Source of the DNA: Halichondria panicea
Lineage: Eukaryota > Porifera > Demospongiae > Suberitida > Halichondriidae
Assembly: GCF_963675165.1 (NCBI RefSeq)
Contig: NC_087385.1
Coordinates: forward strand, 5,132,412 to 5,196,411
Direction: 5' to 3'
DNA: 64,000 nucleotides
Positions 4,571 through 57,800 of this stretch are shown piece after piece. The translations under genes and the position numbers were made by a program. Each line of letters opens with the position of its first letter. The first letter of the stretch is position 1. The notes under the pieces were generated by a model, which saw only the letters and a list, made by a program, of their open reading frames with translations, searched no databases and had not been told where the DNA came from.

Positions 4571-4615
4571 CTCGGGACACTGTTATTCATCGAGCAAGAC
4601 GCTGTCAGGTGAGCG
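4571..4615 (+). pseudogene. spectrin-repeat exon end, relic
   Basis: The stretch 'cactgttattcatcgagcaagacgctgtcag' followed by gtgagcgg matches the 3' end and splice donor of the spectrin-like exon at 28230-28370 (DTVIHQARRCQ). Only this exon tail is left here, in opposite orientation to the TRAF-like gene. Confidence 0.6.
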
Positions 4616-4739
4616 GTGCATGGGGGTGTTGCTATCCATTGTGTTGTTTGGCCTGTAAGCAAATTATATTGACTGGGAGCTGAAGCTATGCGTTTTGGTT
4701 ACACTTCCATGACTTTGTGGTCATAAGATATTTATTGGG

Positions 4740-5010
4740 TGATTCCTAGCCCCTTTGATGTATGATCATTGTGCTCCCCCTCAACCTTACTTACATGTAA
4801 CTTGTATCTCCCTTTGATACATGATCATTGTGCTCCCCCTCAACCACAGCTCTGCTTTTATTTCTATCTCAGCATGACAGGTGCACTGTCCTCATTCCAA
4901 GGGTCAACTCAAGTGTCCCCCTACTCACAACTGACGATTGTGGGCAGACCACCACTTCATGTAACCCTAGTCAGCTGGTTGTTGCTGCATGGTTGTGGTG
5001 CTGATATAAC
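4740..5010. repeat. dispersed repeat B, copy 1
   Basis: Segment with 'tgatgcatgatcattgtgctccccctcaaccacagct', 'cagcatgacaggtgcactg', 'cattccaagggtcaac', 'tgtccccctactc' and 'gttgctgcatggttgtggtgctgatata'. Related copies lie at 14865-15035, 16824-16975, 17140-17400, 28546-28842 (as an inverted pair) and 29085-29310. It follows the spectrin fragment in several TRAF units. The Mutator-like element has jumped into its right end. Confidence 0.7.
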
Positions 5011-6957
5011 GGTGTGTGCACACGAGATCAATTTTCACGAGATCAACTCCCACAAGATCAATTCTTACCAGATCAACTTTGCATGAGGTCAACTCTCAGT
5101 AGATCAACTCTCATAGAATCAACTTTTCATATGATCAACTTCATGGGATCAACTCGATTACAATTTGAATTTAATAAAAAGTGAAATTAGAATTACAAAA
5201 GTAAACAAAAAAAAAAGAGTCCAGTAAGATGCTTGATGGCTGATAAATATGCATTAAGAGTCATGCCTCCTGTGTTAAATCGGTCAAACAGTGTCTGCAT
5301 GAATCCTCTTTTCCTTCTCTTTCATTCGGCGTCTCTGTGGCCGAGCAGTAGCTCCAGACATGTAGCTCTGAATCTTTGCTTTGGTCACTGCCTCCTCTCT
5401 CTGCATGTGTTCAATCCATTTGAAGATGTTTGGGTGAGGGTTGCCTATAACTTTTTTCATTCTAGAATGCCATCCCTCAACATGGTTGTTGGTTCTAGGC
5501 TGATGTTGATTGAAGTAGTTCCAGTGAATTGGTGGAAAGTTTCCATTGATCCAGGTGGTAGTGAAATAATCCACTAGCTCGTCAACTCTTGGGATGTTCG
5601 GAGCATCCTGTTGGATGGAAAGCCAGGCTGTTCTAACAAAATAATGTCAGTGGACAAAATGCCACAGATGCCATCAATTGTACGAATTCCTTCAACTCCC
5701 CATTGGGGCGACGGTATTCTGTGGCTATAGCCCCAGGGCTTGAACCTGTATAGAGCATAGAAAATAGAGTTAGAATAGAGTTATTATTGCTATATAAGAT
5801 ATACCTTTCTCCAAATCGCTTGCATGAAGTGATAATAACAGCCACGATGATATGAGTTCGGAAAGCTCATTGTAGAAGCCTGAACCATGGCCAGCTCAAA
5901 ATCACTCACATCAAAACTGATACCGGGAACTTTAACTAGAGCAGCATCTTTGAGTAGCATGAACACTCTGTTATATGTCTGTCTCTGTTTGTTAGGCAAA
6001 AGGCAATATACCATTGGAAATGTATGGCCATAGAGCAGAATATGGATTGTAAACACCTGCAGAAAAGAGATTAATGAAAATATTCATGTACATAATTATG
6101 TACCTGGTAGAACAGTGAAGGGCATGTTGAGAATGTGCCATCAATGTAAAAGGCCTCTGCATCAGACAGGAGTCTGAGGTTTTCTTCAGTGGCAAAGATC
6201 ATGATCTTGTCATCGTCAACCAGGAGGAAGTCTTCCCCACTTCGAGTGTTTGAGAATCTGGTAGAGAGGCTGACATCTCTTCTGAGGGTCGGAAGGATGG
6301 GAGTGTCTTCGTGTCTAGCTCGGTACAGAGAGGACCTGATAGACTCAAGGCTAGGCAGTTGTGCCAGCACATCAGCAGATCTTGGCTAATTACGTCCAGT
6401 TGATCATCGTAGATCACATTTATGGAGGTACTTTCATCTCTGGCCCTCTTCCTCATTCCCGCAATGGCAACTTGAGTGGTGATCTCAGCTGGATTGGGTG
6501 GGTGATCATGTTCATTCCTTACAACCACACTCAAACCCTCTGAAGTGGCTCTTGCTGGGCAACCAGCCTTGTGGTTTTTGCACCTCCAGAATTGAAAATC
6601 GGTTCCATCTCTTATTTTTGTATAAATATACCCCCCTCCTCGGTTTGTCTTGACGAGTTGAGCCATCATGTTGCAAATGAGTGCATGCTAGTTCTAGTGA
6701 CCCTTTTATCAAAACCTGTCAACCTGTGGCACAAAATATTTAGCACATGTACTATAGTAATTAGCTATAAAAGAAAGGTCAACAACACCTATAAAAATAA
6801 TAAAAATAGTTAATTTCTGGATTTTAAAATTGGAGCTGATCTCAGTTGATTTCAGGAGTTGAGTTGACTCTATGAAAAGTTGATCTACTGAGAGTTGACC
6901 TCATGCAAAGTTGATCTGGTAAGAATTGATCTCGTGAAAGTTGATCTCGTGTGAGGC
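5011..6957 (-). mobile_element. Mutator-like (MULE) DNA transposon with iterated terminal repeats
   Basis: About 1.95 kb. Ends are inverted repeats of ~130 bp (5025-5160 and 6830-6950), each made of 8-10 degenerate copies of a 13-16-bp unit with core GATCAACT (ACACGAGATCAA, TTCACGAGATCAACT, CTACCAGATCAACT-like, and so on). An 8-bp direct repeat GATATAAC flanks it (5003-5010, 6958-6965); MULEs make 8-11-bp duplications. The empty site is visible in the related repeat at ~29300 (gtgctgatataa). Inside is one decayed transposase on the minus strand. Confidence 0.8.
5284..6669 (-). pseudogene. MULE transposase with FLYWCH zinc finger, broken
   Basis: N-terminal FLYWCH-like finger (FQFWRCKNHKAGCPA ... 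EHDHPP) at 6430-6669, then the MULE catalytic domain: first Asp in EAFYIDGTFSTCP, second in SFDVSDFELAM, the C-H pair in RGCYYHFMQAIWRK, and the downstream Glu context in TNNHVEGWHSRMKK. Likely introns lie at about 6059-6104 and 5747-5806 (GT...AG junctions that rejoin the family order). Between the C-H motif and the Glu motif, and between the FLYWCH part and the catalytic part, the frame is shifted, so the enzyme is probably dead. It would cut and paste the element by its terminal repeats. Confidence 0.8.
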
Positions 6958-6965
6958 GATATAAC

Positions 6966-7430
6966 TAGTGTTCAAGCGCTAATGCCTCTCGCCATGTTTT
7001 TGCTTTCGCTCAAAAGTATTAGAGTGTTGTATTAGTTTCTATAATGATTTTATATTAAAGTTAGCTTATCTATATAAAGTCACTGAGAAGAAAATACTTA
7101 TTTACATGCATCTATTGATTGGCTTACCAGGAAGAAGAAAACAGATCTGTAGTTCAGTGTATATAATATCTAGACCTGTGTACATGCATATTGTTATCTT
7201 TATTATATTGTTATATGGTAGTGTTTTGTGGCTTACCAGGCCCTCAAGACAAAGATGATTCTGCCAGGAGGATCTGGATCTTGGATATTATTTTCTAACA
7301 CGTGGGGAATTAGTGCGCATGCGCATTACATCCACAGGAATAATTAAAGGGTGTGTCCAAAGAGATCAATTTCACAAATGGCTACTGTACTACTAGCTAG
7401 CTGTTTTAAAAATGTTAACACTTTGTTGAA
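6966..7430. other. no recognisable feature
   Basis: AT-rich sequence between the MULE and the LINE. I see no exon, RNA gene or element end beyond a palindromic 'gcgcatgcgc' at 7316-7325. Confidence 0.5.
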
Positions 7431-7431
7431 T

Positions 7432-9958
7432 AATTCAATATGATTCAATTCAATTCAATATGATTTTTCAGCATTATATGCCGATGGCAAGCCTGTAGAG
7501 ACAGGTTACCATAATTAGCTATACTAACACATAATTCTAATACATAGTTATAGTTTAAACTGGGCACTTGTTGCAGGGACATTTGAAGTGAAACGAGCAG
7601 GGGTTATCAGAGTCAAAATTTAGCCGAAATTGCAGCCACAGGAATTCCTTGATTTGTTTCTTGATAGCTTTGCTTGAGAGTGAAGTATCTATCAAAGGTA
7701 GGCCATTCCAAAGTCTAGGCAGACGATTGTAGTAAAAGTGCCGGAGTAAGTTTGTGCGGCAGTAGTTATGTTTTAGAGATAAACTGTCTGACGACCTGGT
7801 AGTCCCCGTAACAACTGTAGCATTCTTGGATATATTGAATCTGCTTGAAGGATTTTTGTATGAGTTTACGAAAAACATAACATCCGCCAGCTCAAGGTGG
7901 TACATAAGTGGGAGTTAGGTACACAAGTCTTTCCTTATAAGTCATAGGAGATGTGGTTTGGGGAAGGATAAACTTTGTGGCTCTCCTTTGTATTTTTTCT
8001 AATGACAATATGTCTTTCAGCAGCATTGGTCGCCAGAGTTGAGATCCATAAGATAGCTGAGATCTCACTAAGAAAAGGTAGAGTTGTTTCTTAGTGTCGC
8101 TGGAGTTGGTAGAAGAAAAAGTTCTTTTCAGAAGGCCTAACATCTTGTAGGCTTTAGCTGATATGGAGTTGTAGTGGGCCTCCCATTTCAGATCAGATTG
8201 CACCAACAGTCCAAGATCTTTGTTTATCAGAGAGTACTTTATGCATGATCCAGCCAGTGTGTAAGTGGAAGGTTGAGCAGGTTGTCTAGAGGAGCAGAAG
8301 TTCATTTGTATACTTTTGGATTCGTTAAAATAGAGCGACCACCTGTTACTCCAAGTAAGTATTTTGTCGATATCCCACTGTAACTTATTGACATCCTCCC
8401 CGCAGTAGATAACTCTCGAACATTTCGTGTCGTCAGCAAATAGGTGCACCTTAGAGAACTCTACACAGTCTGGCAAGTCATTAATAAAAACCAGAAATAA
8501 CAGGGGGCCAAGAATGCTCCCCTGGGGCACTCCAGAAGTAACAGACACAATTGAGGAATGGTTCCCATTTACTGTAACCATTTGTTTTCTGTTGGAAAGG
8601 TATTCCCGGATCCATTTCCAAGCGTTCCCATCCACACCTAGAGATTTCAGCTTTGCTAATAAACCATTGTGGGAAACTTTGTCAAAGGCTTTTTTGAAAT
8701 CCAAGTATATAGCATCAACCTGGGCCTTAGAGTCTAGGGCAGTGGTAACCTCATGTATGAAACACAGCAGTTGTTGAACAGATGAGTGATTTCTGAGGAA
8801 GCCAAACTGAAGGTTGGAGATTTTGCAGCAAAGATAGTTATAGAGTTTGTCGTACACTAACTTTTCCAACACTTTCGATACGGAACTCAGTAGGGAGATG
8901 GGTCTATAATTCGAGACTGAGCATTTATCCCCCGTTTTATATATCGGTACAATGCAGTGAAGTTTCCACTCAGAGGGGATTGAACAGGTATGTAAGGAGA
9001 TGCAGAAGATATGGTGAAGGACCTTGTACAGGCCTTGACAGCAGTTTTTAAGTATTTTAGGCCCAATTGAGTCCAAGCCGGAAGCTTTGTCCGGGTTGAG
9101 GTTGCACAGTGCTGTGAGTACCTCTTGTTCTGTAACTTGGATATCATTGAATAGGTTAGCACAAGGCGAGCTTGAAAGAAGCTGGGAGGCATTACTCTCC
9201 TTTTCTGATGTAGTGTAAACCGATTTGAAGAATTGGTTGAAGAGAGATGCCTTGTCCAGATCGGAGGAAGCCAATTGTGATTCAAGGTGCATTGTCTCGG
9301 GTAGGTTGCCACGTTTTAATAGGTTATTTATGTACTTGTAGATTTTGCTACTATTAGAGTAAGCAAATTCCTCCACCAAGGATGCCTCGTAATTTATTTT
9401 TGATGTAGACATCAGTTGGTGTAGATAGTTCTCTTCTCTTACTAGACGGTTGACATTGGCAGTAGTGGGATGGATTTTTGCATTTTTCCTAAAGTGGCGG
9501 GTGCGATTTAATTGATGTCTTACTCCTGAGTTGAACCACTTAGGAGAGTTTTTTCTTGGCTTGAGCATGACTTTGGGAGCAAACTGTGATATGGCATCGT
9601 GGAGGATGAACCTCAAGTGATTCCATGCTACTTCAACATCGTAGGTGTATAGACAAACTGAAAAATCATAGTTAAAAATGTAGTCTGCTAGATCCGTATA
9701 GTTCAACTTTGAGAAGTCTGTGACCAAGTGGGGTTCATGTATTAGTGTGTTTGGCCTGTGGGAAGTCATGAATGAGAAAGATACTATCAAGTGATCTGAC
9801 TTTAGTAACCTATTATCATCCACTTGCAGGTTTACTATCTCATCCGGAGAGTTGGTTAGTACTAGATCCAGACAGTTTCCTTTACAATGGGTAGGCACAG
9901 TGACCAGTTGGGAGAAGGTACTTTCGAACACAAAATCACAGAACAAGTTCAACATGAA
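7432..9958 (-). mobile_element. non-LTR retrotransposon (LINE 1 of window), 5'-truncated
   Basis: Minus-strand LINE. It begins abruptly at about 9958 inside the endonuclease domain and ends at its 3' side with iterated TTGAA/ATTCAATATG-like short repeats (7432-7470), as in CR1/L2/Rex-type elements that end in microsatellites and not in poly-A. It carries the RT open frame 7892-9955 and, in a shifted frame, the C-terminus 7555-7905. 5' truncation is the usual outcome of incomplete target-primed reverse transcription. Confidence 0.85.
7555..9955 (-). pseudogene. LINE ORF2: endonuclease C-terminus + reverse transcriptase
   Basis: First ~70 residues are the end of an APE-type endonuclease (LDLVLTNSPDEI, then SDHLIVSFSF). 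The RT follows: LNPDKASGLDSIGPKILKN, IPIYK-type VPIYKTGD, NYRPISLLSSVSKVLEK, FGFLRNHSS, AIYLDFKKAFDKVSH, TSGVPQGSILGPLLFLVFIN, and the catalytic VHLFADDTK. 687 codons are open, then a 1-base shift near 7900 moves the frame to MYHLELADVMFFVNSYKN ... LPRLWNGLPL, the usual C-terminal 'RLWNxLP' region. With the 5' end missing it cannot be autonomous. The shift is best read as a single-base deletion. Confidence 0.85.
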
Positions 9959-10124
9959 TAATTATTATTCATGCCAAACTTAGCTTTTAACTGTATAAAA
10001 GCAAACCGGAACTAACTGAGAACATAGGGCTGCTTACAGGCCGTGCTCAATCTGCTTACAGCCCGTTTCACGGCTGATTACATGCTGAAATCTACAGGCT
10101 GCTAAACAGTATCTAACCAAACAG

Positions 10125-10230
10125 TAGCCTCGATCCCAGGCCGAGTTTTCGCTTTCATAACGATTAGGCGAACAACTAGTTGTTCGCCTAACCGTTATAA
10201 AAGCGAAAACTCGGCCTGGAATCGAGGCTA
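10125..10230. mobile_element. fold-back MITE (TA-flanked palindrome)
   Basis: Near-perfect palindrome with its centre at 10177/10178 (ACTAGT) and 52-base arms with about three mismatches. Ends are TA-GCCTCGAT ... ATCGAGGC-TA, so it fits a TA target duplication as in Tc1/mariner-type elements. There is no spacer, so RNA or single-stranded DNA from it would fold into one long hairpin. Confidence 0.75.
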
Positions 10231-10239
10231 ACGTCAAAC

Positions 10240-10400
10240 AGCTGAATACACACCACGTGGATTTTTATACCTGTAACGGGCCCGTAACAGGCATGAAACG
10301 GCCCGTGGATTTTTGGCTGTGTACCTGTGACAAACAGACAAACAAACAAACCAACAAACCAACAGACTACTATACCCGTGGCCGCCCACGCGCGCCTCGG
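10240..10400. repeat. GC palindromes and CAAA-type simple repeat
   Basis: Contains 'cctgtaacgggcccgtaacagg' as a short palindrome, a second 'acggcccgtggattttt' that mirrors 'ccacgtggattttta', and a 'acaaacaaacaaaccaacaaacc' simple repeat. The phrase 'gactactat(a/c)cc' after an AC-rich repeat recurs at about 47840, which suggests a dispersed repeat. No gene seen. Confidence 0.5.
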
Positions 10401-10406
10401 GTAATC

Positions 10407-11152
10407 CATAGATTGAAAAGGAAGGGGATTGGAAACGACCAGGCCTCCCTGTGTAAATGGTTGAAACACTCCGCGTTATGATTTCGCGCTCGCGATTATT
10501 TTTGTTTTGACCGTACTCTGGTTGTATTTCAACTGTTTCTAGCTCTCCTATCCACTAGCAATCACTCAGAGGCTGGGAGGTTACTCTAGAGAAGTAAGTT
10601 TACACCACTGACAGGCTCTAACTTATCTAAGTCCGCTGTGTTTTTAGTTTTTATTGAATTACTCCATGTCAACTTTTCTCTTTCCCTGCTGCGAAGCCTA
10701 AACAGCAAAAGACATTGCTTGACTTGGTTATTATGTATCTAAGTGCTATATAGAATGGTTTCATGCCATGGATAAGCTTTACTGTTCATAAACGTTTGCA
10801 GTATAGTCCTTCAAACTGCTTTAGTATACTTTTAGATACACCACGGGCCTTGACCTCTCACGACTTCATAGTAAGGGCTATTCCTTCTTTTATAGCATTT
10901 ATTTGTTTAGTGATAGTGGTTGCGTTGCTTAGTCGACCTTTTAGAGCTATATTCTCTTTACTTTTTAGAATATTCAACATTAAAAGTGATCAATTTCACC
11001 ATTTCTATGTACAGCACATTGTATGGCAGCCAAGACAGGTAATGAGCATGCTGACTATAAAATAATCCCTTTGTAGTTTTAGCCACGCTCTATAACGCAG
11101 AGTGTTTCACGCAAAAATGTTCGTTTCCAATCCCCTTCCTTTTCAATCTATG
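10407..11152. mobile_element. MITE family A, copy 2 (746 bp, 7-bp TSD)
   Basis: Same orientation and almost same sequence as copy 1, with a perfect 7-bp duplication GGTAATC (10400-10406, 11153-11159) and the same CATAGATTG...CAATCTATG ends. A ~16-base indel near 10500 and a few substitutions separate the two. Confidence 0.9.
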
Positions 11153-12420: not shown

Positions 12421-14022
12421 TTAGGGCTCGTATCTTTTTCGCCATGATGTGATTTCTTGTTTTACTACTCTGAACTTGAGACAGTCATCTTTCAAGTACT
12501 GTGTTTGTCTATCTGGATTCCATTCCAAATCAGCTAGAGAGATAAATTTGATATCTGGCATGACACGTTCTGGAAACCCATACTCTTTCACTGCTCTCAT
12601 GAAATCAGATGATTCATATGTCATCACCCTAGTAATGTGATCTTGGTCCCTATGCTGATTCAGTAGCTCTATGGTGATTTTTAGGCTGGAGGGATGGTCG
12701 GTCTGGTCTTTGTGGTCTAGGGGTCTCTTTGAATATGCAGGAAGAGATATCTTGAGGGACAGATGAGAGCCAGTTCCTCCCTCTGTTCCATTCGGATATA
12801 GCGTCAGGGAATAAACGTACCCCCCAGAGTGTACTTTCAAAAGTGGACTACTCATGTTTTCTCTCTTATACTTTTGATAGTCTGTAAACACGATTTCGTA
12901 TGGTGGAGCACCAACTTCCAACCTTAAACTGTTGATGTCTGACCGGTGTTCTGTTCCTAAGGTTTTCTTGTTCTCTGCAATTGCTGTCTGCAGCTGTTTA
13001 ATCTGTTCGTCTTTGGCTCCGAGACTGCTTTCAAGTTTTTGGTGCTGCATATCTGTCTCTTCATTTGTTTTCCTTTGAAATTCATCCCAAGAAACTTGCA
13101 TATCTTTGAGCTCTTTTACAACAACTTCGTGCTTCTTTTCGTACTGATCTCGAAACTTCTGTTCAAATATTTGTTGCTGCTTTTGGAGCTCCTGCTTGTT
13201 AGCTTGCTGCAGCTCTTGCTGAGTAGCTAGTATAGTAGCTATCAAGGCTAGGTGTTTCTGTGTGTTTTGTTCAATGTGCTCCTTTTGCTTGTCTCGTATA
13301 AACTCAGCCTCACAACCAGCATATCTAAACTCACACTGCACTTTTTGCTGACTACATATCTTATTGTGGTCTTCAAGATAATCTCGTTTGAAGATGGCTC
13401 CACAGCCGTTTAAACACTTATGGAAATGGTGATGGCAAACTTTCAAATGCTGAGAAGCTTCACAAAAGGTCGTTCTGGAGTAGCATTTTGGACACGTGTA
13501 GTCTCTATTTGGGCACTCTTTTGCTAGGTGTGTGCCCACATTGCATTTTTGTACTTTCTGCTCGCAGCTTTTGGGGCAGTCCACATCGACATAGACACAA
13601 TCCCCAGTAGTGAGGTCTAAGTGAGCACCGAGGTGTTGAAGTTGTCCAGTCCATTTGCAGCCTTGAACTTTCTTATGGCAGTGTTTTAAAGCTGGAAACA
13701 TACACTGAAACATGTTCCACGTGCACCCGCTATGTGGAGTATCATCTTCTTCTTTCAGCTGTTCCTTTGAGCAGCGAACTTCTTGCGCCAAAATCTTAGC
13801 TTGATATTTTCTATGAGGCTTTGAACTTAGACTGTCGTTTTTGCAGCTGGGACAACCCTTTTTCTCTTGAATGATAGTTTCGATACACTCTTTGCAGAAT
13901 GTTTCTCCGCAGCAAGTCGCAGTATTAGCCTCTCTGGCTACATGTTTGCACTGCTTGCAAACGTATTTGTTTTTAATTGAATAAACGAATTCGTACTCAT
14001 AGCCTAGCTTAGAGGTAGCCAT
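12421..14022 (-). CDS. TRAF-like protein: RING + TRAF zinc fingers + coiled coil + MATH-like domain (copy 2)
   Basis: Intronless, 533 codons from MATSKLGYEYEF (a second ATG 13 codons upstream is less likely, since MATSK is the start kept in the family). RING at ~25-62 (CKQCKHVAREA, CCGETFCKECIE, CPSC); TRAF-type zinc fingers at ~105-250 (CKWTGQLQHLGAHLD, CPKSCEQKVQ, CPNRDYTCPKC, CLNGCGAIFKRDYLEDH); coiled coil ~255-370; C-terminal MATH/TRAF-C-like part ~375-530 (PPYEIVF, YSLTLYPNGTEGG, LKISL, NQHRDQDHITRVM, FISLADLE, YLKDDCLKFRV). This is the full TRAF order, close in layout to TRAF2-6. Expected to trimerise through the coil and MATH parts and to act as a ubiquitin ligase or adaptor. It is the most complete family member here and the reference for judging the others. 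Confidence 0.85.
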   Translation of the reverse strand: MATSKLGYEYEFVYSIKNKYVCKQCKHVAREANTATCCGETFCKECIETIIQEKKGCPSCKNDSLSSKPHRKYQAKILAQEVRCSKEQLKEEDDTPHSGCTWNMFQCMFPALKHCHKKVQGCKWTGQLQHLGAHLDLTTGDCVYVDVDCPKSCEQKVQKCNVGTHLAKECPNRDYTCPKCYSRTTFCEASQHLKVCHHHFHKCLNGCGAIFKRDYLEDHNKICSQQKVQCEFRYAGCEAEFIRDKQKEHIEQNTQKHLALIATILATQQELQQANKQELQKQQQIFEQKFRDQYEKKHEVVVKELKDMQVSWDEFQRKTNEETDMQHQKLESSLGAKDEQIKQLQTAIAENKKTLGTEHRSDINSLRLEVGAPPYEIVFTDYQKYKRENMSSPLLKVHSGGYVYSLTLYPNGTEGGTGSHLSLKISLPAYSKRPLDHKDQTDHPSSLKITIELLNQHRDQDHITRVMTYESSDFMRAVKEYGFPERVMPDIKFISLADLEWNPDRQTQYLKDDCLKFRVVKQEITSWRKRYEP

Positions 14023-14107
14023 TCTTGTGAACTGTTCCTCGAGTTTAAATTTGGCAATCACATATACGTACGTATAAGGTTACACTTGCAATTAGTGGTT
14101 AGACTTC

Positions 14108-22443: not shown

Positions 22444-22522
22444 TAACTAATACTATTATATGATATAATAATTACAATTACAATACGTGTACAATGCACT
22501 TTGATATGCATTGTACATGTAG

Positions 22523-22637
22523 CTACACAGTCAGTGTTTGTTTTGTGAGGGACGATCTCGAGTACCAGAGAGGATAGTTAGTGAAGAACAGGATGACCAG
22601 TCGCACTCGAGTGATCACCGAGTAACCGGGACCATAT
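22523..22637 (-). pseudogene. duplicated last exon of ankyrin-DHHC gene A
   Basis: 115 bases matching exon 17 of gene A (29935-30049): acceptor CTACAG, YGPGYSVITRVRLVILFFTN, stop. The similarity extends to about 22980 and matches 29935-30350. It has no upstream exons next to it, so it is a stranded copy. Confidence 0.8.
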
Positions 22638-22987
22638 CTGTAGAGGGTGTGTGTGTGTGTGTGGTTAGAATTTGAGACGAAGTGCACGTAACCTTAACCA
22701 TAGATATAAGAGGGAAGGAGATTAGAAACGGAGTACGTGCGTGCGCACAATCACTTCTGTGTAATGACAAAAGTTGATCCGTGTTTCGCCTCCAGACACC
22801 CCGCCAACCCAGCAGGAAATAATAATAATTATTATCATTCACAGCTCCCCACTGGGATTCTTAGTCCTGTGCTGAGCATCCACGCCTACTGTGCATCATA
22901 TAGAAGCGTTGTGTATGTCACCAGGAGCTTGGAAGCTCTCAAATTAAGGCAGTTTTTTGGGTTATTACTTTGTGTAAATGTCACGAA

Positions 22988-24860
<1,873 letters not shown>

Positions 24861-28370: not shown

Positions 28371-28545
28371 TCAGCGGTGCATGGGGCTGTTGCTATCTTT
28401 GTTATTTGGCCTTGATGACATAAGTTTAACTGGAGCTGGAGCCGTTTTGGGTTACACCAAGAAGCTAGTGGCAGAGGGTCGGACACTCGGACACTGCTCT
28501 CCCTGTCTCCCTGTCTCCCTACAGCGATTTTGGACACCGTTGCAG

Positions 28546-28842
28546 TTGACCTTTGGAATGAGGAAAGAAGCTGCAAGTGGCACACAGTGCACCTGTCATA
28601 CTCAGATCTGAGCTAGAACAAGGAAAGCTGTGTGTGGTTGAGGGGGGAGCACACTGATAGTGATCATGCATCAAAGGGAATCACCCACCCAATGTTATAC
28701 CACAAAGTCAAGGAAATGTAACCCAAAACGCACAGCTTCGGCTCCAGTCACCACACACAGCTTTCCTTGTTCTAGCTCAGATCTGAGTATGACAGGTGCA
28801 CTGTGTGCCACTTGCAGCTTCTTTCCTCATTTCAAGGGTCAA
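28546..28842. repeat. inverted pair of dispersed repeat B (fold-back)
   Basis: Left arm 'ttgacctttggaatgaggaaagaagctgcaagtgg...aacaaggaaagctgtgtgtgg' is mirrored by 'cacacacagctttccttgttctagctcagat...ctttcctcatttcaagggtcaa'. Arms of about 95-100 bp with few mismatches, loop of about 110 bp. Confidence 0.8.
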
Positions 28843-28917
28843 CCCAGGTGTCCCCCTACTCCAAACTTAGTCTCATGAATTAGCTGCACCTCTCAGGAAA
28901 GTCGAGTACGCACAATG

Positions 28918-29855: not shown

Positions 29856-29934
29856 GCAATTATGTCAAACAATCAGCGTTAGTATAATTAATCTTGAATC
29901 GACCAAAGCAAAAAAATGAGGAAGCTACTGTCAG

Positions 29935-32900
29935 CTACACAGTCAGTGTTTGTTTTGTGAGGGACGATCTCGAGTACCAGAGAGGATAGTTAGTGAAGAA
30001 CAGGATGACCAGTCGCACTCGAGTGATCACCGAGTAACCGGGACCATATCTGTAGAGGGTGTGTGTGTGTGGTTAGAATTTGTGGTTAGAATTTGAGATG
30101 AAGTGCACGTAACCATACATATATAGATATAAGAGGGAAGGGGATTGGAAACAAAGCACGCGCACAATCACTTCTGCCAAAAGTTGATCTGTATTTCGCA
30201 GCAGGAAATATTATTATTATCATTCACAGCTCCCCACTGGGATTCTTAGTCCTGTGCTGAGTATCCACGCCTACTGTGCATCATATACATGTAGAAGCGT
30301 TGTGTATGTCACCAGGAGCTTGGAAGCTTTCAAATTAAGGCAGTTTTTTGAGTGTTGTATTATCGTTTCAGCTCTATCTAGTGGCTTTTTGTACCTTCTA
30401 CAAGGAGAGGCTGTGACTACAGTACAAAATATTAGTGATTCCCTCTTTCTTATAGCTAGGCATTGTATGTAAGTAAAATCAAAGCCACTTGCATGGCTTT
30501 AGGTTGGTAATTCAGTAATATTTATTTTTGTCTTAAGCTGGTTTTGAAATGCAGACTCTTTGTGTACCCACTTAGAAAGTTATATCAGTGATTGAATGTA
30601 GGTAAATGTCTCTTTGTATTCATTGATAGTTTATTTATTGTTCGAGTTTATACAGGTGAAAAGAATGAAAAACTAAGATTGTTGAATTAGCTGGGGCTAA
30701 TAAAAGCCGCTCTTGAACAATGGCCTCTCTCAAATTGTAGCTTCCTCTGCCAGCAAAAAGTAGCCGCAGCCTCTGATCAAGTATATACGGTATACACTAT
30801 TCCCATTTCACTATTTCACTATTATTATTATGTGTGTTAATAGCACACATAGCTTCAGATACCAAGAGTACAATGTTAGTTAAAATGACCATTAGACAGA
30901 AACAGCTAGCTATATAACTTCAGGGTAAAATAACAGTACGCATAGTATGCATGCATGACTGAATGCACACAAACCTTTTCTTCCTGTAAGCTCCTCCACG
31001 ACCTTCCGAGTCAAAGTACGTGGTCTCTAAACGGGATATTTGAAGAAGCTGCTGCCCTGTGTTCTGACAAAACACACAAAGTAATCGACTGACAGCTAAA
31101 TGGTTGACCAATGAACAGGCAACCTGTAATGGTACACAGAGCACAAAACTTACCATGGCAGCGAAAACCATAGCAACACAGTTACACAATGCCAGCATCA
31201 TGACAGCTGTTTGGTCAGTGAAACCAACCTGAGTAAGAGTGTATGTAAGTGAGGTGGTAGGTACATATATAAGCATCAGAAAGACAAGAATACGTACATG
31301 TAGGGTACTAAGACTTTAGACTATGCTAAACACTTACCGACAGCATTCCCCAAAAGCTGTCATCTCCACCAACTTTCCCCATCACTAGTGTGCGTGTGTG
31401 TGTGTGTGGAGGGGGGGAAGGAATTCCAGTTTAGACTACAATCAAATCAAGATAGCTAGCTAGCGACAGTACTGTAAGAGGTAATTATGCTCTAGCTAGT
31501 GTACCTAAAACACAAATATATATACAGTCTATGGTAGTAGGTAACTCACTGGAGAGTGAGTGATAGATGAACAAGAAGCTGTCCAGTACGAGGCACATCA
31601 TGAACACTACAAAGTAGCGATGACTGTTGTACCCAACACAGCGAGTCAGCCACATGCAATGGTGGTCAAACCCTCTGCAGCAGCTATCACACAGCTTGCA
31701 GTGTTTGGTGAACTCTGAGATCACTATCTGTAGTGTGTGTGTGTGTGTGTGTGCGTGGTCTCTACAGTTGCCTTTTGGACTCATTGCCTCACTCTACTGA
31801 CATCGCCACCTAGTTTGATATTTGCTGGAACTTGCTAGGGCAACAAACTACAATGACTTTTGTGTATGTACATGTGTGTGATATACAGTGGAACATCTGC
31901 AGAGGAAAAAGGATAATACCCTCAAAAAGCCACGCACGCACACACACACACACTCACTTCACACTTGGCACAGAACACTTGACTACTATCACTGTCCTTC
32001 AGATGAGTGATTCCCTCTAGGTCACTGTTGGCTTGTCTGGCCACGTCCACAATAGACTGTAAAGTGTCACAAGTCAATCATAACCTGTTGCAAAGTTGCA
32101 CATGCAGAGCTAGTTGTGCTAGAGCAACTTTTTTCAACCTAGCTACATGTACCTTGTAAATGCCAGTTGAATTTAACAAATAACCTCACCAATGGTCTCC
32201 CATCTTTTCCAAGCTTTCCAACTGTATCAATCCCTGGATCAGACCACCTCAGTTTGCTGTTAGTGTGTGCGTGTAGGGTGCATGGTAGTAAGGGTATATA
32301 CAGATCTCATACACAGTACTGGGCACTCTCACAAAGCTAGCAGCAAAGAATGGTTGCTGTGTATCGACTCACAAATAGAGCAGCTGAGCAGTTATTGAGC
32401 TGGCTGTCAATATGATGAACGATAGGGCATAATCAGGCCACAACAGTGGGAGGAGTCAAGGAAACTATCAGGAACAATCTGTATCACTGGCACAAACTTA
32501 GAATAAGTAAGTAATTGACAGCACGTCTCTGGTGAAATGGGAACGTTATACTAGTAGCTCAGGGCAATACATACTTATATATAATGAGTCGCAAGTCGCA
32601 ATAGAAAATACGGTTTGAGGATATCAAAGAAGATTCTGAGCAAGTAGAGTAGACAAGTGAGTGCAACCCCCACCACGAGTGCCCCCAGTAGGAGTGGGTT
32701 GGGCCAGCCGACAGGATGGGGGATCCGATGCAGGGTGAGGGGGAGGAAGAAGCCAAGGACAGCGATTGTCAGTGCCACAACAAGCCCCACTGGCTGGTGG
32801 ATGTGGGTAAAGGCCACCAGTGCCAGAAGCAATGTTACTCCTGTACGTATGTGTGCAGGTGTGTAGTGCGTGTGGGTACAATTAATAGTGTGAGCATGTT

Positions 32901-34723
32901 AGTGAACTAGGCTGTTGATGGAACTACTAATGAATGGGTATGTGTGTGTTGTGTTTACAACTCACCTCCTAGCAGTGAGAAGAGGACCCACCATACCCAT
33001 GGAACCAACCTCATGTAGTCAGGTGAGTTAGACCACTTCTCCAGCCTCTTGGCAAGCAGCCTGTGACTGAATTGAGAGAGAGAGACCATCAAGCCAATGA
33101 GAACTAAATTGTACACATAATATGTGGATGAAGTGAGTGTTATGCAGGACTTAGGTAAACCAAGCTAGGCCACTTAAATACATACAAACTGTAAGCACAT
33201 TATGCAGGAACTAGAGTACTGTCAACCCAGAGCACAAGCATCAACCTACTCCTCTTGCTGTCCCCTCTTAGCTATGTCCAGTGGAGTGAGCCCATTCTTC
33301 TCCCTCTGTTTGAGAGGGTCTCTCTTCCTACCCAGTGTCTTGCTGAGCAGGATCCAGCACATCTCACTATGCGTGTGTGTGGTGGGACAGGTTTATTCTG
33401 TAGCCTGAAGAGGTATTGACATTCACAAAAACTACAGACCCCTTCCCATCAAATAATGGACATTTCCTCTTAAAGTGGCTATGCTGGTGCATCTTTGTGT
33501 TCCCGGCCAACATTATATTTCGTCCCTCAACTATTAAAATAGCTGGAGATGTGGTACCGCCATGCACTCACACACTTCCGTGCTTTGCTGCATAGTGTAC
33601 AGCTGTGAGTCCATCCTTATTCGAAGCACGCAAGTCACATCTCTAAAATCAAAATGAGAATTAAACACTGTGACATGAACACAGGCTGGAAAAAGTCACA
33701 TTGTACATTGTACCTTGTGTCTTATGAGGTAGCCCACTGCTTCAAGTTTATGATTCGAAGCTGCCAAGTGCAGGGGTGTGTTACCTCTGTGTATGTGGTG
33801 GGGGGTAGTAGTGTGTGAGGGTGTGTGAGAGGTGACTCACTGATTATCAGTAGCCCTGAAGTTTAGACCTCCTCTCTCAGACAAGTAATGGAGGATGTGA
33901 CTGTAAAAGGAGATCAACCAACCTCTCAACCAACACCACACACACACTGACAACACAACACACTAGAGCAGTGACTCACACAGCTCCTGCCTTTGCAGCG
34001 TAGTGCAGTGCTGACTGGCCATGGCTGTCCACTAAACTCAGGTCAGCCCCACACTCACACAGTCTGTGCACCACGTACAGGTTACCAGTCTAAACCAGAC
34101 AACAACAACAAAATTAGTTTTGAAAAAACTCCACATGTAAGGAATGAGTAAGGGACTTACATAATCACCCTAAGGTACCATAGCAACTTCTATTTCAGCA
34201 GGCTCACCTCAGAAGCGAGCATGAGTGGAGTCTCCCCTCTCGCTGCTCTGGTGTCTACTATTGCTCCGTGATGGACCAGCATGTTGATCAGAGGCATGCT
34301 GCAGCGCTTGGTAGCACAGTGCAGGGGGGTGTAGCCAAACTGGGGCTCTACAGACTCTGTGTGTACGAAAGTAAGTACAGACCAAGTGGTGACTATATTA
34401 CGTGCACGAGAAGAACTCTAAAAAATGAATCTCTAGATAAGTTAGCTATGGACTTCATGGACGTCAAGCAGCTCTCTCACGTGGAACAAAAGGGTAAAAG
34501 CTTGCTTGATTTTGATTTTCAGTATGAATAGAACTCACATACCCAGACAGAGTGGGTGTGCGGTCACCACAGCTTCCACCTCATCCACAGTCAGGTTGGG
34601 ATTGTAGATGGCCGCATGGACAGTAGGGAGGGTGTCCAGAGTGGGCGTGGCCTCCCAATCCTCGGACACTTCTTCAGCAGGATACAAGTCCACCCTCTCG
34701 TACGCCTCTTCATCAGAACTCAT
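29935..34723 (-). CDS. ankyrin-repeat DHHC palmitoyltransferase, gene A (ZDHHC17/13-like)
   Basis: 17 exons; model 34543-34723, 34208-34356, 33980-34089, 33841-33900, 33714-33786, 33572-33642, 33250-33366, 32966-33066, 32625-32840, 32373-32445, 32190-32256, 31958-32056, 31550-31727, 31338-31384, 31154-31228, 30975-31063, 29935-30049; sums to 606 codons, in frame throughout. S-acyltransferase that transfers palmitate to cysteines of client proteins, expected in Golgi/endosomal membranes. Six ankyrin-type repeats (GYTPLHCATKRC, GQSALHYAAKAG, GNTPLHLAASNH, GLTAVHYAAKHG, NGLTPLDIAKRG), four membrane spans, then the cysteine-rich domain FCAKCE...KHCKLCDSCCRGFDHHCMW and two more spans. The usual Pro after DHHC is Met. 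Intron 9 (32446-32624) is AT-AC. Start at MSSDEEAYER; an upstream in-frame ATG at 34753 is possible. Human ZDHHC17 is about 630 residues. Confidence 0.9.
32446..32624 (-). other. AT-AC (U12-type) intron in gene A
   Basis: Intron begins ATATCCTCAAACC and ends TTTCCTTGACTCCTCCCAC on the minus strand. ATATCCT is the U12 AT-AC donor, TTCCTTGAC the U12 branch-site consensus, about 11 bases before the terminal AC. Removing exactly this piece joins RIFF to LWPDYALSF in frame and avoids a TGA directly upstream of the exon. Confidence 0.8.
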
Positions 34724-35065: not shown

Positions 35066-38000
35066 ATGTGCTCTCATGGTGAAGAAATGAAGGACGACAG
35101 TGGGATTGGGAAGGCTCCTCCCACTCTTGAGAGCACTCTTCCCTCATCCCCCCTCACCCTCCCTGACATCCATGCGGCCATCTACAATCCCAACCTGACT
35201 GTGGATGAGGTGGAAGTTATGGTGACGGCACACCCACTCTGTCTGGGTATGCGTGAGCTGTACGATCTCTGATTTTTTGTTCTTTATTCATTCGAAAAAC
35301 TCCACAAGATATAGTATAGTATAGTAGTAGTAGATATTCAGCATCTCCAATAAATATTTATAAGTTAACCCAAATACATAATAATTTAAGCATACTAGAA
35401 CAGTAACAGGGATTGGAAACAAAATTTTTGAGTGAAATACTCCGCGTTTATATAGAGTGTGGCTAAAACTTGACTGCCCTACGATGTGCTGTACGTCGAA
35501 ATAGTGACATTGATCACTGTTCAATGTTGATTATGCTAAAAAGCAAAGAGAACCTAGCTCTACATGGTCGACTAAGCCACTCAGCCACTATCACCAAGCA
35601 AATAAATGCTGTACAAGAAGGAATAGCCCTTTAATAATATGAAGTCGTAGGAAGTCAAGGCCCGTGATGTGTCTAAAGCAGTTTGAAGGATTATACTGCA
35701 AACGATTATGAGAATAGTACAGCTTATCCATAGTATGAAACCACGTAACAATCATAACGCTAAGTGTTTCAACCGTTCACACAGGAAGACATAATCGTTT
35801 CCAATCCCCTTCCTTCTCTATCTTATGAATTAAGTAAGGAAGCACTTCCTTAACATACTTACACATGCAGAGTCTGTGGAGCCCCGGTTTGGCTACACCC
35901 CCCTGCACTGTGCTGCCAAGCGCTGCAGCATGCCTCTGATCAACATGCTGGTCCATCACGGAGCAATAGTAGACACCAGGGCAGCGAGAGGAGAAACTTC
36001 ACTCATGGTCGCTTCTGAGGTGAGCAGGACACCTGGTCCTCTGCAGTAAGAGCTTTGGACTATAATCACTAGGTTTATGGGTGCCTAGGTTCCTAAGTTG
36101 AGTATTTTCAGTTTAGTTTACCAGATACCGAGTACTAGTACAAGAAGAGGGCTTGTTCACTGCTAAATCACCTACAGTGCATGTAATTTTCATAATGTAT
36201 TCACCACTCAATTATCACCCCCCTCCTCCACACACACAGTCTGGTAGCCTTTATGTGGTGCACACGCTGTGTGAGTGTGGGGCTGACTCGAGTCTAGTGG
36301 ACAGTCATGGCCAGTCAGCACTGCACTACGCTGCAAAGGCAGGAGCTGTGTGAGTCACTGCTCTAGTGTGTTGTGTTGTCAGTGTGTGTGTATGGTGTTG
36401 GTTGATCTCCTTCTACAGTCACATCCTCCATTACTTGTCTGAGAGAGGAGGTCTGAACTTCAGGGCTACTGATAATCAGTGAGTCACCTATCACACACCC
36501 TCACACACTACTACCCCCTCCCCCCCACACACACAGAGGTAACACACCCCTGCACTTGGCAGCCTGGCACCTCAAACTGGAAACCATTGAATACCTTATG
36601 AGACACGAGGCAAGTAAAAAATAATACGTACAGAGTCGGATAACTGAGTGTCCTGTTACAAAGTATGTACATAGTCATGTGATGTATTCTTGACTTATTC
36701 ACTATCCAGAGATGTGAGGTAGCAGCCACAAACCAGGACGGGCTTACAGCTCTGCATTATGCAACCAAGCATGGGAGCATGTGAGTCAATTATTACACCA
36801 GTCTCGTGGTAGCTAACCTATCATTATTGTTTGCATATTCCATCGGGTGATTGTACACTAGTACACTAAACCAAACCCATATTCCCGGTTTTACCTTCGT
36901 ATATTATATACACACACATTAGTGAAATGTGCTGGATTCTGCTCAACCAAGAACAGAACATAGTGACAAAGCTTCTCCATCAGAGGGAGAAGAATGGCCT
37001 CTCCCCGCTGGATATAGCCAGGAAAGGACACAAACAAAAGTAGGTTGTGCACTATATGTAAACTGTGTACACAGTACACTAGTCACTATTGACTGTTTTC
37101 TTCAATGCAGACACAATCTGCTCTCTAAGAAGCTGGACCAGTGGTCAGACTCACCTGGCTACATGAGGTTGTATCCATGGGGGTGGTGGGTCTTCTTCTC
37201 GCTGCTGGGAGGTGAGTCGTTAACACAACTCATACAAAACAGTAGTTGCTTATTATAACCTATTATACCTACCACCATCAATTGTGTAGCCGTCGGTGCT
37301 TTCTTTATCAACAGTACAGTTAGTACAATGTATTACACCACACACACTCAGGATTGACGATGACCCTAGCCTTGCTAGCCATCACTCAACTCTTCCAGCC
37401 AGTGGGTTTCGTGCTGTCGCTAGTGATACTACTCCTGGGCTTCTTCCTCCCTCTCTCTATGCACCGGATCCCCCACCCTGCTGGCTGGCCCAACCCACAA
37501 ATGGTGGGTGCTCTCCTCGCTGGAGTCACCCTCACAACCTTTAACTACTTTAAGAGAGTCTTTCATGATATCCTTATTCACTGTTAGTACTTCCGCTCTG
37601 TCATGCTCTGTTAGTAGCAGAAGATTAAATATACAGTACCAAATGTTCTGCATTTCAGAGGGTCCACTGTAGTAACTTTAATTAGCAGTTTTTCTATCGA
37701 AGTACATGTTTTCTTGACTCCTCTCACTGGTGTGGCCGGACTATTACCTGTCGTTCATCATCATGGCAATCATTGGATTCACAGCTCTTGTGATCTACTT
37801 GTAAGTCTTTTTGTCAATGATGATCAAACCCTTGCTAAATGACCTCACACGTACACACATACAGCAAACTGAGGAGATCTGATCCAGGTTTTGATAAAAT
37901 CGGGAAATTAAGCAGTGATGGAAAGCCATTTGTAAGTGTCGATCAATATTATTGCATTATGTACAAGCAATATGCAACCATGTATAGATGTAGAGAAATA

Positions 38001-39242
38001 ATCTGCAAACAGAAGTTCACATGCTTTCATTCACACGTACGTACACGTATAGTCCCTTCGCAGGATTTTAATTGATATGTGTTTGTCATGTGACTATACA
38101 GACGATCGTGGACGTTGCTAGACAAGCCGAGACCAGTCCTCACGGGTTCGCCTACATGGAGGGTAAAGACCTGAGTGGGGACACTCTTCTATTCTGTACC
38201 AAGTGTGAGGTGAGTGGGTGTAGTACACAGCTAGTACTCTTTGACACTCTGGTTCCTCTAGCAGCACAAGTGCACACCTGCATTATAATTATCTGTAGAG
38301 GTTGTTCTGTATTGGGGCAGTCCTTTGTCGGAGGTGACACTGTATTTGTGTTACAGATAGTGATCCCGGAGTACACCAAGCACTGCAAGCTGTGCCAGGG
38401 TTGCTGTCGAGGGTTTGACCACCATTGCACCTGGCTATCCTCCTGCATAGGATACAAGAATCATCGCTTGTTTATCATCTTTGTGTTTAGTCTCATGATT
38501 GATAACTTCCTGTACGTCTACCACGCTTTCACCAGTAAGTTACTGTTGTCTCTTATTGTGTACTTGCTGACTTGCTGACTCACATGCAATTCTATGGTAT
38601 TATAATATCAATTGCCTAATACGTCATAATGTACTCACACGCACACATTCACAGTGATGTTGAGATTAGGAGGTGACAATGGATTCTGGGGAGTGTTGTC
38701 AGTAAGTGCATTCAACTCTCCATACCCAATCACACGTACTGGTACTCAATTTACCCATGTAATAATTATAATGTGTTTTGATTTTTGATGTACGTATACT
38801 ATTAAGTTATGAACACGGCCGATTGTTATCTCTGTCCGTCCAGGTGAGTTTCAATGATGAGTCAGCTGCCATGCTGCTCCTACTATGCAACCTGTTGACT
38901 GGTCTCTATGCTGCCGCGGTGAGTCGAGTGATTGATATCGTTCTCCTCTTACCTTGACACCATTCTTTCTGTCTCTAGAACCTCTGGGAACAGATCATGC
39001 ACATATCACGTAGAGAGACTGGCTACTTCGACTCTAATGGAAAAGTACCATACAAGAAGAAACGGTATGCTCCTTTTATAATTATAGTTGTTGACTAACC
39101 TCTCTCTACGCATACACACACCCTCTACAGATATGGTCCCGGTTACTCGGTGATCACTCGAGTGCGACTGGTCATTCTGTTTTTCACCGACTATCCTAAC
39201 TGGTCCAGATCGTCCTCAAAAAAACTAACACTAACTGTCTAG
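35066..39242 (+). CDS. ankyrin-repeat DHHC palmitoyltransferase, gene B (ZDHHC17/13-like)
   Basis: 17 exons: 35066-35246, 35871-36019, 36240-36349, 36419-36478, 36537-36609, 36710-36780, 36923-37039, 37111-37211, 37352-37567, 37728-37800, 37865-37931, 38102-38209, 38357-38534, 38655-38701, 38844-38918, 38979-39064, 39131-39242; 607 codons. Fourteen exons have exactly the same length as in gene A, including exons 1-11; only 12, 16 and 17 differ, which supports both models. Ankyrin repeats (GYTPLHCAAKRC, GQSALHYAAKAG, GNTPLHLAAWHL, GLTALHYATKHG, NGLSPLDIARKG), spans WWVFFSLLGG and LALLAITQLFQPVGFVLSLV, then FCTKCE...KHCKLCQGCCRGFDHHCTW. The Pro after DHHC is Thr. Intron 5 uses a GC donor (GAG|GCAAGT), intron 9 is AT-AC, intron 1 holds a MITE. 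Divergent to A, so an inverted duplication; protein divergence is well beyond allelic. Confidence 0.9.
35405..35826 (-). mobile_element. MITE family A, copy 3, decayed, inverted
   Basis: Within intron 1 of gene B. The right end has 'aatcgtttccaatccccttccttctctat' and the left end 'agggattggaaacaaaattt'; the inside reads antisense to the part of copies 1/2 around 'gatcaatttcaccatttctatgtacagca' and 'cgtggttt..agcttatcc'. About 420 bp, so internally deleted. The left terminal CATAGATTG is missing. Confidence 0.75.
37568..37727 (+). other. AT-AC (U12-type) intron in gene B
   Basis: Begins ATATCCTTAT, branch region TTTTCTTGACTCC, ends CTCTCAC. Joining exon 9 to exon 10 gives RVFHVVWPDYYLSFII in frame. 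The exon lengths on both sides (216 and 73) equal those of gene A. Confidence 0.8.
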
Positions 39243-54800: not shown

Positions 54801-57800
54801 AGTGTGCCTGTAGCGATGTGGCGGTGTGTGGAGTGTGTGTGGAGTGTGTAGACTCACACTTAGGAAGGTCTCCAGTTAGTGGGACCACCTCTATCTCTAG
54901 TTCTCCGGGTATCACTGGCAACTTGTGCTTGTGTATACTGAATAGAAGAATGTGGTGACTGATAAATATGTCGTCATGTGACTCACCTCCGATAGTCAAA
55001 GAGGGTTTTAAGTATCTCCTCGTCTGTTAGTTTCTCTCTGTCTTGTCGGTAGAACGGTGAGAACTCAGCTGTTGTGTCCAGCTCCTCATTCGAGTCAAAC
55101 AAAGGTCTGGCAACAAACCGACAATATTAAATTAGTTGTGTAGTCTATAATGAACTGTCTCACCTGACAGCCCACGCAAAGGGCATTCTGTACTGACCCA
55201 ATCGAGCATACACAGACGGCATCTGCTGTGCCAATTTCTGAGTGACCTGTGAGTACAAGTACAACACATCAAAGGAAAACAAAGTGGTACCATTAAATAG
55301 CTAGGCTATACATATGTACAAGCTGTGGTTATCCAGAATAGCAATAGGCAGTGTTGTCTGACCTTAGCGCTGTCACTCTTGATGTAAGGATCAGCCGCGT
55401 CACTGATACCTCCCTGTAACACCTTCTCCAGTCTGGCCACCAGGAATACGTTGCAGTGAGGGAACGTCACTGAGAACACCCCCTGCACACAACCACACCC
55501 CTTGTTGGTCTAGTATATACTATATTCTTGTACCATACAATTAGTAACTACTAAAAACCTGACTGTATCGTTCACCACTAATTTTTGTGATTCTCACCAC
55601 TAAAGCTCTGGTGGCCTTCTCACTGAGTGGGTGGGGTCCACTGTCTGTGAGTCCACTGGGGGGAGGGACCATCTGACGTAGAAACGGAGAGTTGAGGTCG
55701 ACGTGGAAATCCTCTGAGATCTTCACCATTTTGTTGGCATCAAATAGGGCCAGCTTCAGAAAGAAAGGCTCAATCTATGGCAACAAAGAGACACAACTTC
55801 AATGAGCATGTTAGTATTTGTATTGTAAAAACATCACATATGAATGAATGAAGGAATTGCATTTTAGTTACAATAACTACCATCTTGATCCACGTGTATA
55901 GATGACAGCTCATACTACACTCACATGACTGGGTGAACCATTTCTCTCAGTGGTGAGGCTTAGTTTGAGCTGGTGGCATTTGACCAAGAACCTTGTCCCG
56001 AATCTCTCTACAGGAATAGGAACACTCTTCTTCTCTTCACAGTCTCCAGATGGTTTCTGTAAGGAAAGTGGAATGTAGAAAAAATGTAATTTTTGCAGTT
56101 TACATAGCTTAACAGTCAGTTTATACTAACTAAAGTACTTGCACGGACAAGCATACCATAAGCTCTGGGTAAACGTGAAAGAGTGGGTGCGAGTCCTTCT
56201 GTCTGTTGTGTGCATTCTTAGGATCAGTACCACTCGTGTTCTGCAGACCAACACCATAATTATACGTACATGTACAACACACACACCAGCTCACCTCCAA
56301 AAGATCAGATGAAATATCAATTTTTTTTGGATCTTTCATAGTCTCTTTAGCATAGAAGGAGCTGATGTCAGCTGACACCTGGTCAACAGCCTCCCCTCCC
56401 TGACTGATGGCAATGACCTTGTTCAGAGTTTCCACCCACTCATCTAACTCCGTCTCACTGTCAGCTGCCAAGGGGTAGAACACTTTGTCATCCATTGTCA
56501 CCAGCTCAAACCCCAGTGCCTTGTAACGAGAGTTCTGGGGGAACAAACAAACGCGTGCATGCGTTTTATAGTGTATAACAGCTAACATGACCTCATTAGC
56601 TTTGCTATTATTCACTCCACAGCATAAAAAGTAAAAAAAAAAAACACCACATACCTTTTTGGCTTGTGTGCACGTTTCCAGGAGAATCTTCCCTTTGATA
56701 TGGGTGCTCTTTTCATCTTTGTATATCGTGAGGGTGTAGCCACTATCAGCACCAAGAGTGTCAGAATCCCTGCGACCTCCACTGATAACAAACCAACGCT
56801 TTCTATAGGTCTGCAAATACAAGAGGATGTTTTAACACTTAGCACAAAAACCTGATCAGTACAAAATCATACAGAAGTCCTCGATAGTATAGTGGTAAGT
56901 ATCTCCGCCTGTCACGCGGAAGACCCGGGTTCGATTCCCGGTCGGGGAGCTTTTTTTATCTTATCAAATCCAAACTACAATTTTTTTTTGTTTTATAATC
57001 TGTACATGTACCTTCATAGAAACTGAAATGCCTCCATCTTGAGGGAATGGGCCTTTGTACAGGTATCCTTTGAGTTTGAGTGAAGCACCATCAATGTAGT
57101 CAGCCTAAGTATTCATACAGAGAGTGTTTAGGTAATCAATTCAACCTAATTGAACATGATGACCTAAATAGTCGTCCAATTACTGTAATAAAACAACTAA
57201 CATCAACCGCACCCAGTACTACTTACAGAAAGTGAAGCAAGCCTTTCCTCCTCAGCCAGGTCCAGTTCAAAGGTCTCCTTGCTCAGAGTATCTCGATACT
57301 CGTGGCTGTGAGGTAGAACAGAACAACAGTTGCAGCTTGCAGCCTTATCTATACCTCATGCAACCTATCTACACCAACTCAATCATTAGCATATCCACCT
57401 AATGCTGAATGATTCCCATGAGATAGTTAGGATCAAGGCTATACAGTGACAAACCCACCTGTACTAGAATTGAGCTTTACCTGAGCAGCTTGTCACAGCT
57501 TGAAGAAAAGTTGGCATAGTTGTAGGTGACCTTGTTCCAATTGGATGTGAAAAATCGCAGACACTGGAGGAGGAAATAAAAATGCAAATATGTTAGCAAC
57601 ATGTTATATACACCCCACCCCCTTTAAAGACGTTTGGTATGTTGTGTGTCCTGCCACACAAGTACATTGATCATAATAACAAACTTTCACTTTCACTAAA
57701 AACCAGTACACATTGACAATGATTAGTTTATGATACACTATAGATAAGTACTATGTGGTTTGGGAGAGGAGATTAACTACACAAAACAATGTATACAACG

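Follow-up and report, generated by a model that had tools for sequence, protein, structure and literature searches.

zDHHC17 and zDHHC13 (HIP14 and HIP14L) each combine ankyrin repeats with a DHHC domain, and so do the products of the two genes that we describe here, which we assign to this kind by architecture alone. A literature search found no report of a minor intron in ZDHHC17. In the available text of PMC2831892, ZDHHC8 is described as having a U12-type GT-AG intron (intron 4 of 11) that is kept from human to fly, and the available text of PMC2952598 also names ZDHHC8 as a DHHC gene with a U12 intron; in these portions of the two papers, the DHHC gene that is named with a U12 intron is ZDHHC8, not ZDHHC17. 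As for sponges, neither "Porifera" nor "Amphimedon" is present in the available main text of PMC10639083, minor introns of sponges are not mentioned in the available text of PMC6259924, and a literature search for U6atac in Amphimedon found nothing. A U12-type 5' splice site is expected to lie close to ATATCCTTT in sequence.

The window is a stretch of 64,000 nucleotides from the sponge Halichondria panicea. The features at issue are as follows (the ninth intron of each gene is called intron 9).

34723-29935, minus strand: gene A, ankyrin-DHHC acyltransferase; 17 exons, 606 amino acids; hand-built model with no internal stops
32625..32840, minus strand: exon 9 of gene A, 216 nt
32446..32624, minus strand: intron 9 of gene A, AT-AC, predicted U12-type; 179 nt, phase 1; donor ATATCCTCA, branch TTCCTTGACTC, CAC end
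32373..32445, minus strand: exon 10 of gene A (the WPDY exon), 73 nt
35066-39242, plus strand: gene B, ankyrin-DHHC acyltransferase; 17 exons, 607 amino acids; hand-built model with no internal stops
37352..37567, plus strand: exon 9 of gene B, 216 nt
37568..37727, plus strand: intron 9 of gene B, AT-AC, predicted U12-type; 160 nt, phase 1; donor ATATCCTTA, branch TTTCTTGACTC, CAC end
37728..37800, plus strand: exon 10 of gene B (the WPDY exon), 73 nt
23800..23969, plus strand: intron 9 in the pseudogene copy C, 170 nt; end motifs as in A and B

A and B adjoin head to head. Both contain Pfam PF12796 (ankyrin) and PF01529 (DHHC) above the curated cut-offs, and their proteins share 399 of 593 aligned residues (67%). 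By the hand-built models, all 16 intron positions and phases are common to the two genes. The ends are GT-AG for 15 introns in A and for 14 introns in B, which also has one GC-AG intron; in both genes, intron 9 is AT-AC. (The GC-AG intron is intron 5 of B, which starts at 36610 with the donor GCAAGTAAA; its counterpart in A is GTACAATGT.) NCBIfam gave nine matches in the ankyrin range, every one of them far under its cut-off. Similarly, when we searched PDB with full-length B, the best 60 of 451 matches were all in the ankyrin range. The C-terminal part of B matched eight solved DHHC chains, seven of which align over the DHHC core only; ERF2 is the sole chain that aligns across the junction of exons 9 and 10, and it does so weakly.

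The likeness of A and B is uneven. Four-fold degenerate sites are identical at 57 of 105 positions in exons 5-16, at 45 of 49 in exons 2-4, and at 17 of 21 in exon 17. The two genes resemble each other much more closely in exons 2-4 and exon 17 than in exons 5-16, which suggests gene conversion for these parts (with introns 3 and 4). The segments that are more alike are 34202-34364 with 35863-36025, 33938-34091 with 36238-36391, and 33788-33922 with 36397-36531, and introns 3 and 4 share the high likeness of exons 2-4.

Elsewhere in the window, a long open frame at 7892-9955 (minus strand) resembles a retroelement reverse transcriptase, and an open frame at 12421-14061 (minus strand) resembles TRAF-like zinc fingers and has relatives nearby; both were named by eye. 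There is an inverted repeat at 28545-28638 and 28750-28843, with arms of 94 nt that are 98% complementary and 111 nt apart. Rfam found one tRNA at the gathering level in the window (56878-56949, plus strand).

A preliminary description, made from the sequence of the window, had placed an AT-AC intron of the U12 type at the same site in A, B, and C. The three intervals proved to be exact, with the ends as given there, and the exon lengths of 216 and 73 are correct in the gene models of A and B and likewise in C. The joined frames that it proposed, RIFF-VLWPDYALSF for A and RVFH-VVWPDYYLSF for B, belong to frames that stay open for 606 and 607 amino acids. The donors are ATATCCTC in A and C and ATATCCTT in B, the branch site reads TTCCTTGAC or TTTCTTGAC, and the 3' ends are TTCCTTGACTCCTCCCAC in A and TTTCTTGACTCCTCTCAC in B and C. 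In all three, the intron terminates in CAC, that is, in an AC preceded by a pyrimidine. This terminal AC had been described as lying about 11 bases after the branch; the CAC end is there, but the intron ends 10 nt after the branch-point A.

We compared intron 9 with the remaining 15 introns of each gene. Its donor matches RTATCCTTT at 7 of 9 positions in A and 8 of 9 in B, versus 2-6 of 9 for the other introns, and its branch motif matches the consensus (TTCCTTRAC, near the 3' end) at 11 of 11 positions in A and 10 of 11 in B. None of the other 15 introns in either gene combines, as intron 9 does, a donor of at least 7/9, a branch of at least 10/11, and an AC end. Intron 1 of B has a branch-like TTCCTTAAC, but its donor matches at 6/9 and it ends in AG.

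How often would such signals arise by chance? A strict pattern (a minor donor, T[TC]CTTRAC, and a terminal AC or AG, spanning at most 400 nt), which was composed after the sequence was seen, has three matches on the two strands of the window, and these are A, B, and C; in 100 dinucleotide shuffles, the mean was 0.56 and the maximum was 4. A looser pattern has five matches in the window, as compared to a shuffle mean of 7.58, which is no excess. Given this, the motif alone is weak, and the argument rests on its position. On both strands of the window, the donor ATATCCTY occurs six times and the 3' motif four times (A, B, and C included). From these counts, the chance that both would lie at a fixed exon boundary is about 7e-9, an estimate that keeps A, B, and C in the counts and uses a motif that was defined post hoc.

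The comparison of A and B shows which parts of the intron were retained. The first eight bases match at seven positions, and the last 18 bases match at 16. In the interiors, the best ungapped pair of 18-mers has 12 matches (14430 pairs compared), and the alignment of the interiors is no better than that of shuffled sequences (z = 0.2 and 0.6). Since the ends match and the interior is at the level of shuffles, the conserved parts of intron 9 are those that the minor spliceosome would read.

The third copy needs more caution. Segments of C are 90-99% identical to B, and those flanking intron 9 are 99% identical. Exons 8-14 alone are recognizable; exon 8 contains a stop and has lost one base, which shifts the frame, and exon 13 is truncated. 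Taken together, this makes C a broken copy that was duplicated from B recently. The preliminary description had counted the intron in three copies, and the same motifs are indeed found in all of them, but only two of these count as independent, because the near-identity of C to B rules C out as a third. The start of the intron in C (23800-23820, ATATCCTCATCCAGTAC) is nearer to that of A than the start in B is, so the start of intron 9 in B may have changed after B and C split. Intron 8 of C contains a CA repeat of about 200 nt (about 23366-23580), where B has few units. Also, a 139-nt segment with the terminal exon of A (29933-30071) occurs again at 22521-22659, 100% identical; this second copy lies upstream of C, on the strand opposite to C.

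We searched the genome (131 Mb in 39 contigs) for components of the minor spliceosome. The Rfam models identified U12 (108.1 bits), U6atac (102.6 bits), U11 (86.2 bits), and U4atac (59.6 bits), all above the gathering scores. There was one match per family, which is a lower bound: the best 39-48 of 4,225-10,807 first-look candidates were scored. The computed pairing of U4atac with U6atac is -30.2 kcal/mol. CCDC84, which we take to be CENATAC, was found in five stretches (best 47.9 bits versus a cut-off of 25.3), and PDCD7, presumably the U11/U12-59K protein, was barely above its cut-off (27.8 and 27.1 bits versus 27). The available text of PMC13049632 describes CENATAC as the centrosomal AT-AC splicing factor.

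We also looked for other minor introns in the genome. There was no excess over the reversed control for the first minor-intron pattern (20 rows versus 37), for a long TATCCT pattern (20 versus 63), or for an AT-AC pattern (34 versus 113), and a search that fixed just GTATC, TTCCTTRAC, and AG was hardly enriched (33 rows, with 30 unique donors, versus 29). With counts at or below the controls, or hardly above them, we rejected pattern abundance as proof of minor introns. The weight of the evidence lies in the make-up of the donors and in the joined translations. CT occupies +6 and +7 in 16 of the 30 unique GTATC donors; equal base use would predict about two. We joined the translations across candidate introns at 17 loci and chose 10 of the products for Pfam, with two hand-trimmed. 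Seven of the 10 matched a family at E of 0.1 or better, and three had no match. Five were above the curated cut-off, with the junction within the match: Sep15/SelM, cullin neddylation, choline transporter (27.1 bits versus a cut-off of 26.9), CPSF_A (DDB1-like, by eye), and ribosomal protein L4. The matches to a cullin N-terminus and to huntingtin were below the cut-off.

Two of these additional introns have support from solved structures. The gene for ribosomal protein L4 has a 75-nt intron of the U12-type GT-AG kind (L061, G000:C16:79628-79702), and the joined product aligns across its junction to solved L4 proteins. A second AT-AC intron, of 83 nt, lies in a kinesin-motor gene (L082, G000:C7:810884 onward), and the joined product aligns without gaps across the junction to two solved kinesin-like proteins. 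This intron was one of five rows with CT at +6 and +7 among the 34 AT-AC rows and was picked for a 3' end like that of A. (The gene resembles kinesin-like calmodulin-binding protein.) Because the kinesin AT-AC intron joins an aligned reading frame, the AT-AC subtype in this genome extends beyond the DHHC genes, although the pattern search gives no hint that it is common. Overall, we consider eight minor introns to be supported: those of A, B, kinesin, Sep15, cullin neddylation, the choline transporter, CPSF_A, and L4. The support is a protein match above the cut-off, solved relatives, or the models of A and B, and it was called by hand; loci without protein support were left out.

Intron 9 of both ankyrin-DHHC genes is almost certainly a U12-type (minor) AT-AC intron that would be removed by the minor spliceosome, because its end motifs are conserved in diverged paralogues, an AG-ending intron that would keep the next exon whole is excluded (as explained below), and the machinery (four snRNAs, CCDC84, and a weak PDCD7) is present along with other minor introns. 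On these grounds, the preliminary description's view that the minor spliceosome removes this segment is supported as an inference. In principle, the major spliceosome could remove the segment, either with the help of GT-AG sites or by treating it as an AT-AC intron of the U2 type: GT-AG or GC-AG ends are found on all of the other 15 introns in both genes, and the open stretch past exon 9 contains GT or GC sites (three in A, one in B, and five in C). But all three copies have a TGA within the branch motif, 10 nt ahead of exon 10 and in its frame, and no AG occurs between this TGA and the exon. An intron that ends in AG therefore cannot leave the WPDY exon both complete and in frame. Within exon 10, the earliest AG ends at nucleotide 42 of 73 in A and at nucleotide 57 of 73 in B, so its use would cost that much of the exon, and at places that do not correspond. 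Also, the conserved donor and branch of intron 9 fit the U12 consensus, and we consider removal by the major spliceosome to be very improbable. The preliminary description had stated that no GT-AG alternative gives the WPDY exon, and this holds for keeping that exon, although the retained segment does contain GT sites.

Two other explanations concern whether the intron is put to use. If A and B were both decaying copies, the motif might be inherited and unused. The nearby copy C is broken, and we found no further match to the DHHC part among the best 72 of 907 candidates in the genome, which is a weak point in favor of decay; however, the frames of A and B are complete over 17 exons, the proteins retain 67% identity, and the DHHC and ankyrin domains are above their cut-offs, so decay is scarcely credible. 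Alternatively, the intron might be retained deliberately, with a main product that stops after exon 9 and the DHHC enzyme made only under active minor splicing. If intron 9 is retained, an in-frame stop is reached at the 17th codon in A and the seventh codon in B, after 16 or six residues, and the length of the intron is not a multiple of three in A, B, or C. Moreover, the available text of PMC8199999 describes the retention of minor introns as a switch that is linked to the level of U6atac. Against this, the read-through tails (DILKPYFLLRLATHYI in A, DILIHC in B, and DILIQYFRSVMLC in C) diverge between A and B past DIL, so these two genes have no tail in common at the protein level (A and C share DIL..YF), and exons 10-17 are open in both A and B. 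Deliberate retention seems unlikely to us.

If intron 9 is removed by the minor spliceosome, as we expect, then U11 would pair with its donor and U12 with its branch motif (the computed U12-branch duplex is -11.7 kcal/mol for A and -10.9 kcal/mol for B). U4atac/U6atac would join next, the segment of 160-179 nt would be excised, and exon 9 would be joined in phase 1 to the 73-nt WPDY exon, which, from its hydrophobic residues, is probably part of a transmembrane segment. Because retention meets a stop and the DHHC domain is lost, the splicing of intron 9 would set whether the enzyme is made or, instead, an ankyrin-membrane protein that is cut short (or RNA that decays). The motifs, their conservation, the logic of the frames, and the presence of the machinery genes are directly shown by the sequence, whereas the splicing itself and any regulatory role of retention are inferred.

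The most interesting lead is outside of the window, in U6atac. The gene (G000:C17:3379775-3379902, minus strand; L010, 1501-1628) reads GTGTTGTATGAGCCGAGAGAAGGTTAGCA where the Rfam consensus reads GUGUUGUaUGAAAGGAGAGAAGGUUAGCA, so that it has GCC instead of AAG at positions 12-14. When we searched the genome with these positions open and three mismatches allowed, we found a single copy of U6atac, the one with GCC. A U6atac-like pattern had no matches in the genome contig and viral contig collections. The gene has a TATA element (TATAAATA) shortly upstream and a run of T at its end. By eye, its stem with U4atac is GATAAGG/CCTTATC, as compared to GACAAGG/CCTTGTC in the consensus, and because the stem keeps its pairing through these paired changes, the GCC-bearing gene looks functional.

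The AAG of canonical U6atac pairs with positions +6 to +8 of the donor. According to the available text of a review (PMC8199999), U6atac pairs with the 5' splice site and displaces U11. We computed duplexes of U6atac with the donors of intron 9. With the sponge's own U6atac, these were -4.1 kcal/mol for A, -4.3 for C, and -2.1 for B, in differing registers, versus -4.2 for A, -6.1 for C, and -5.4 for B with the Rfam consensus. Across the donors that we tried, the sponge's own U6atac gave -4.1 to -4.6 kcal/mol with CCTC, -2.0 to -2.1 with CCTT, and -1.9 with CCTA, again in differing registers.

The donors themselves also differ from expectation at +8. The minor donor consensus has T at this position, as quoted in the available text of PMC6259924; this quoted consensus is our reference. 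Intron 9 has C at +8 in A and C and T in B. Among the 16 GTATCCT donors, +8 is C in eight, A in five, and T in three, and among nine introns (A, B, kinesin, Sep15, two cullins of which one is below the cut-off, the choline transporter, CPSF_A, and L4), it is C in five, T in three, and A in one. The shift to C at +8 and the better pairing of CCTC with the sponge's own U6atac are suggestive, and the numbers are small. Donor recognition may have been rewired, with the AAG of U6atac changed to GCC, the U4atac/U6atac pairing, the U12-branch pairing, and U11 kept, and the donors shifted from T towards C at +8; we propose this tentatively and would put it at somewhat under an even chance. If it is true, then +6 and +7 of the donor would be held mainly by U11, and two roles that coincide elsewhere would have become separated in nature. 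Because this genome has the four minor snRNAs along with an altered U6atac contact, comparisons could test how U11 and U6atac divide their labor at the donor.

The pan-eukaryotic survey of Larue and Roy (PMC10639083) used the same four Rfam models, and, according to its available text, takes a genome to bear minor introns if no fewer than three of them are called, two or more minor snRNAs are present, and the fraction of corrected introns is low. Here, four snRNAs were found, along with eight supported introns that were called by hand, not by the survey's program. Intron 9 resembles the known U12-type AT-AC introns in its donor, its branch site, the short distance from branch to end, its AC end, and the minor snRNAs in the genome: it is a further case of this known kind and is ordinary for its type. 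It adds a well-supported AT-AC minor intron to a DHHC subfamily for which our literature search found no prior report of one. What differs from zDHHC17 and zDHHC13 is that a pair of intact genes and a broken copy lie next to one another at this locus. As in ZDHHC8, a minor intron lies within a DHHC gene, but ZDHHC8 belongs to another subfamily and its intron has GT-AG ends.
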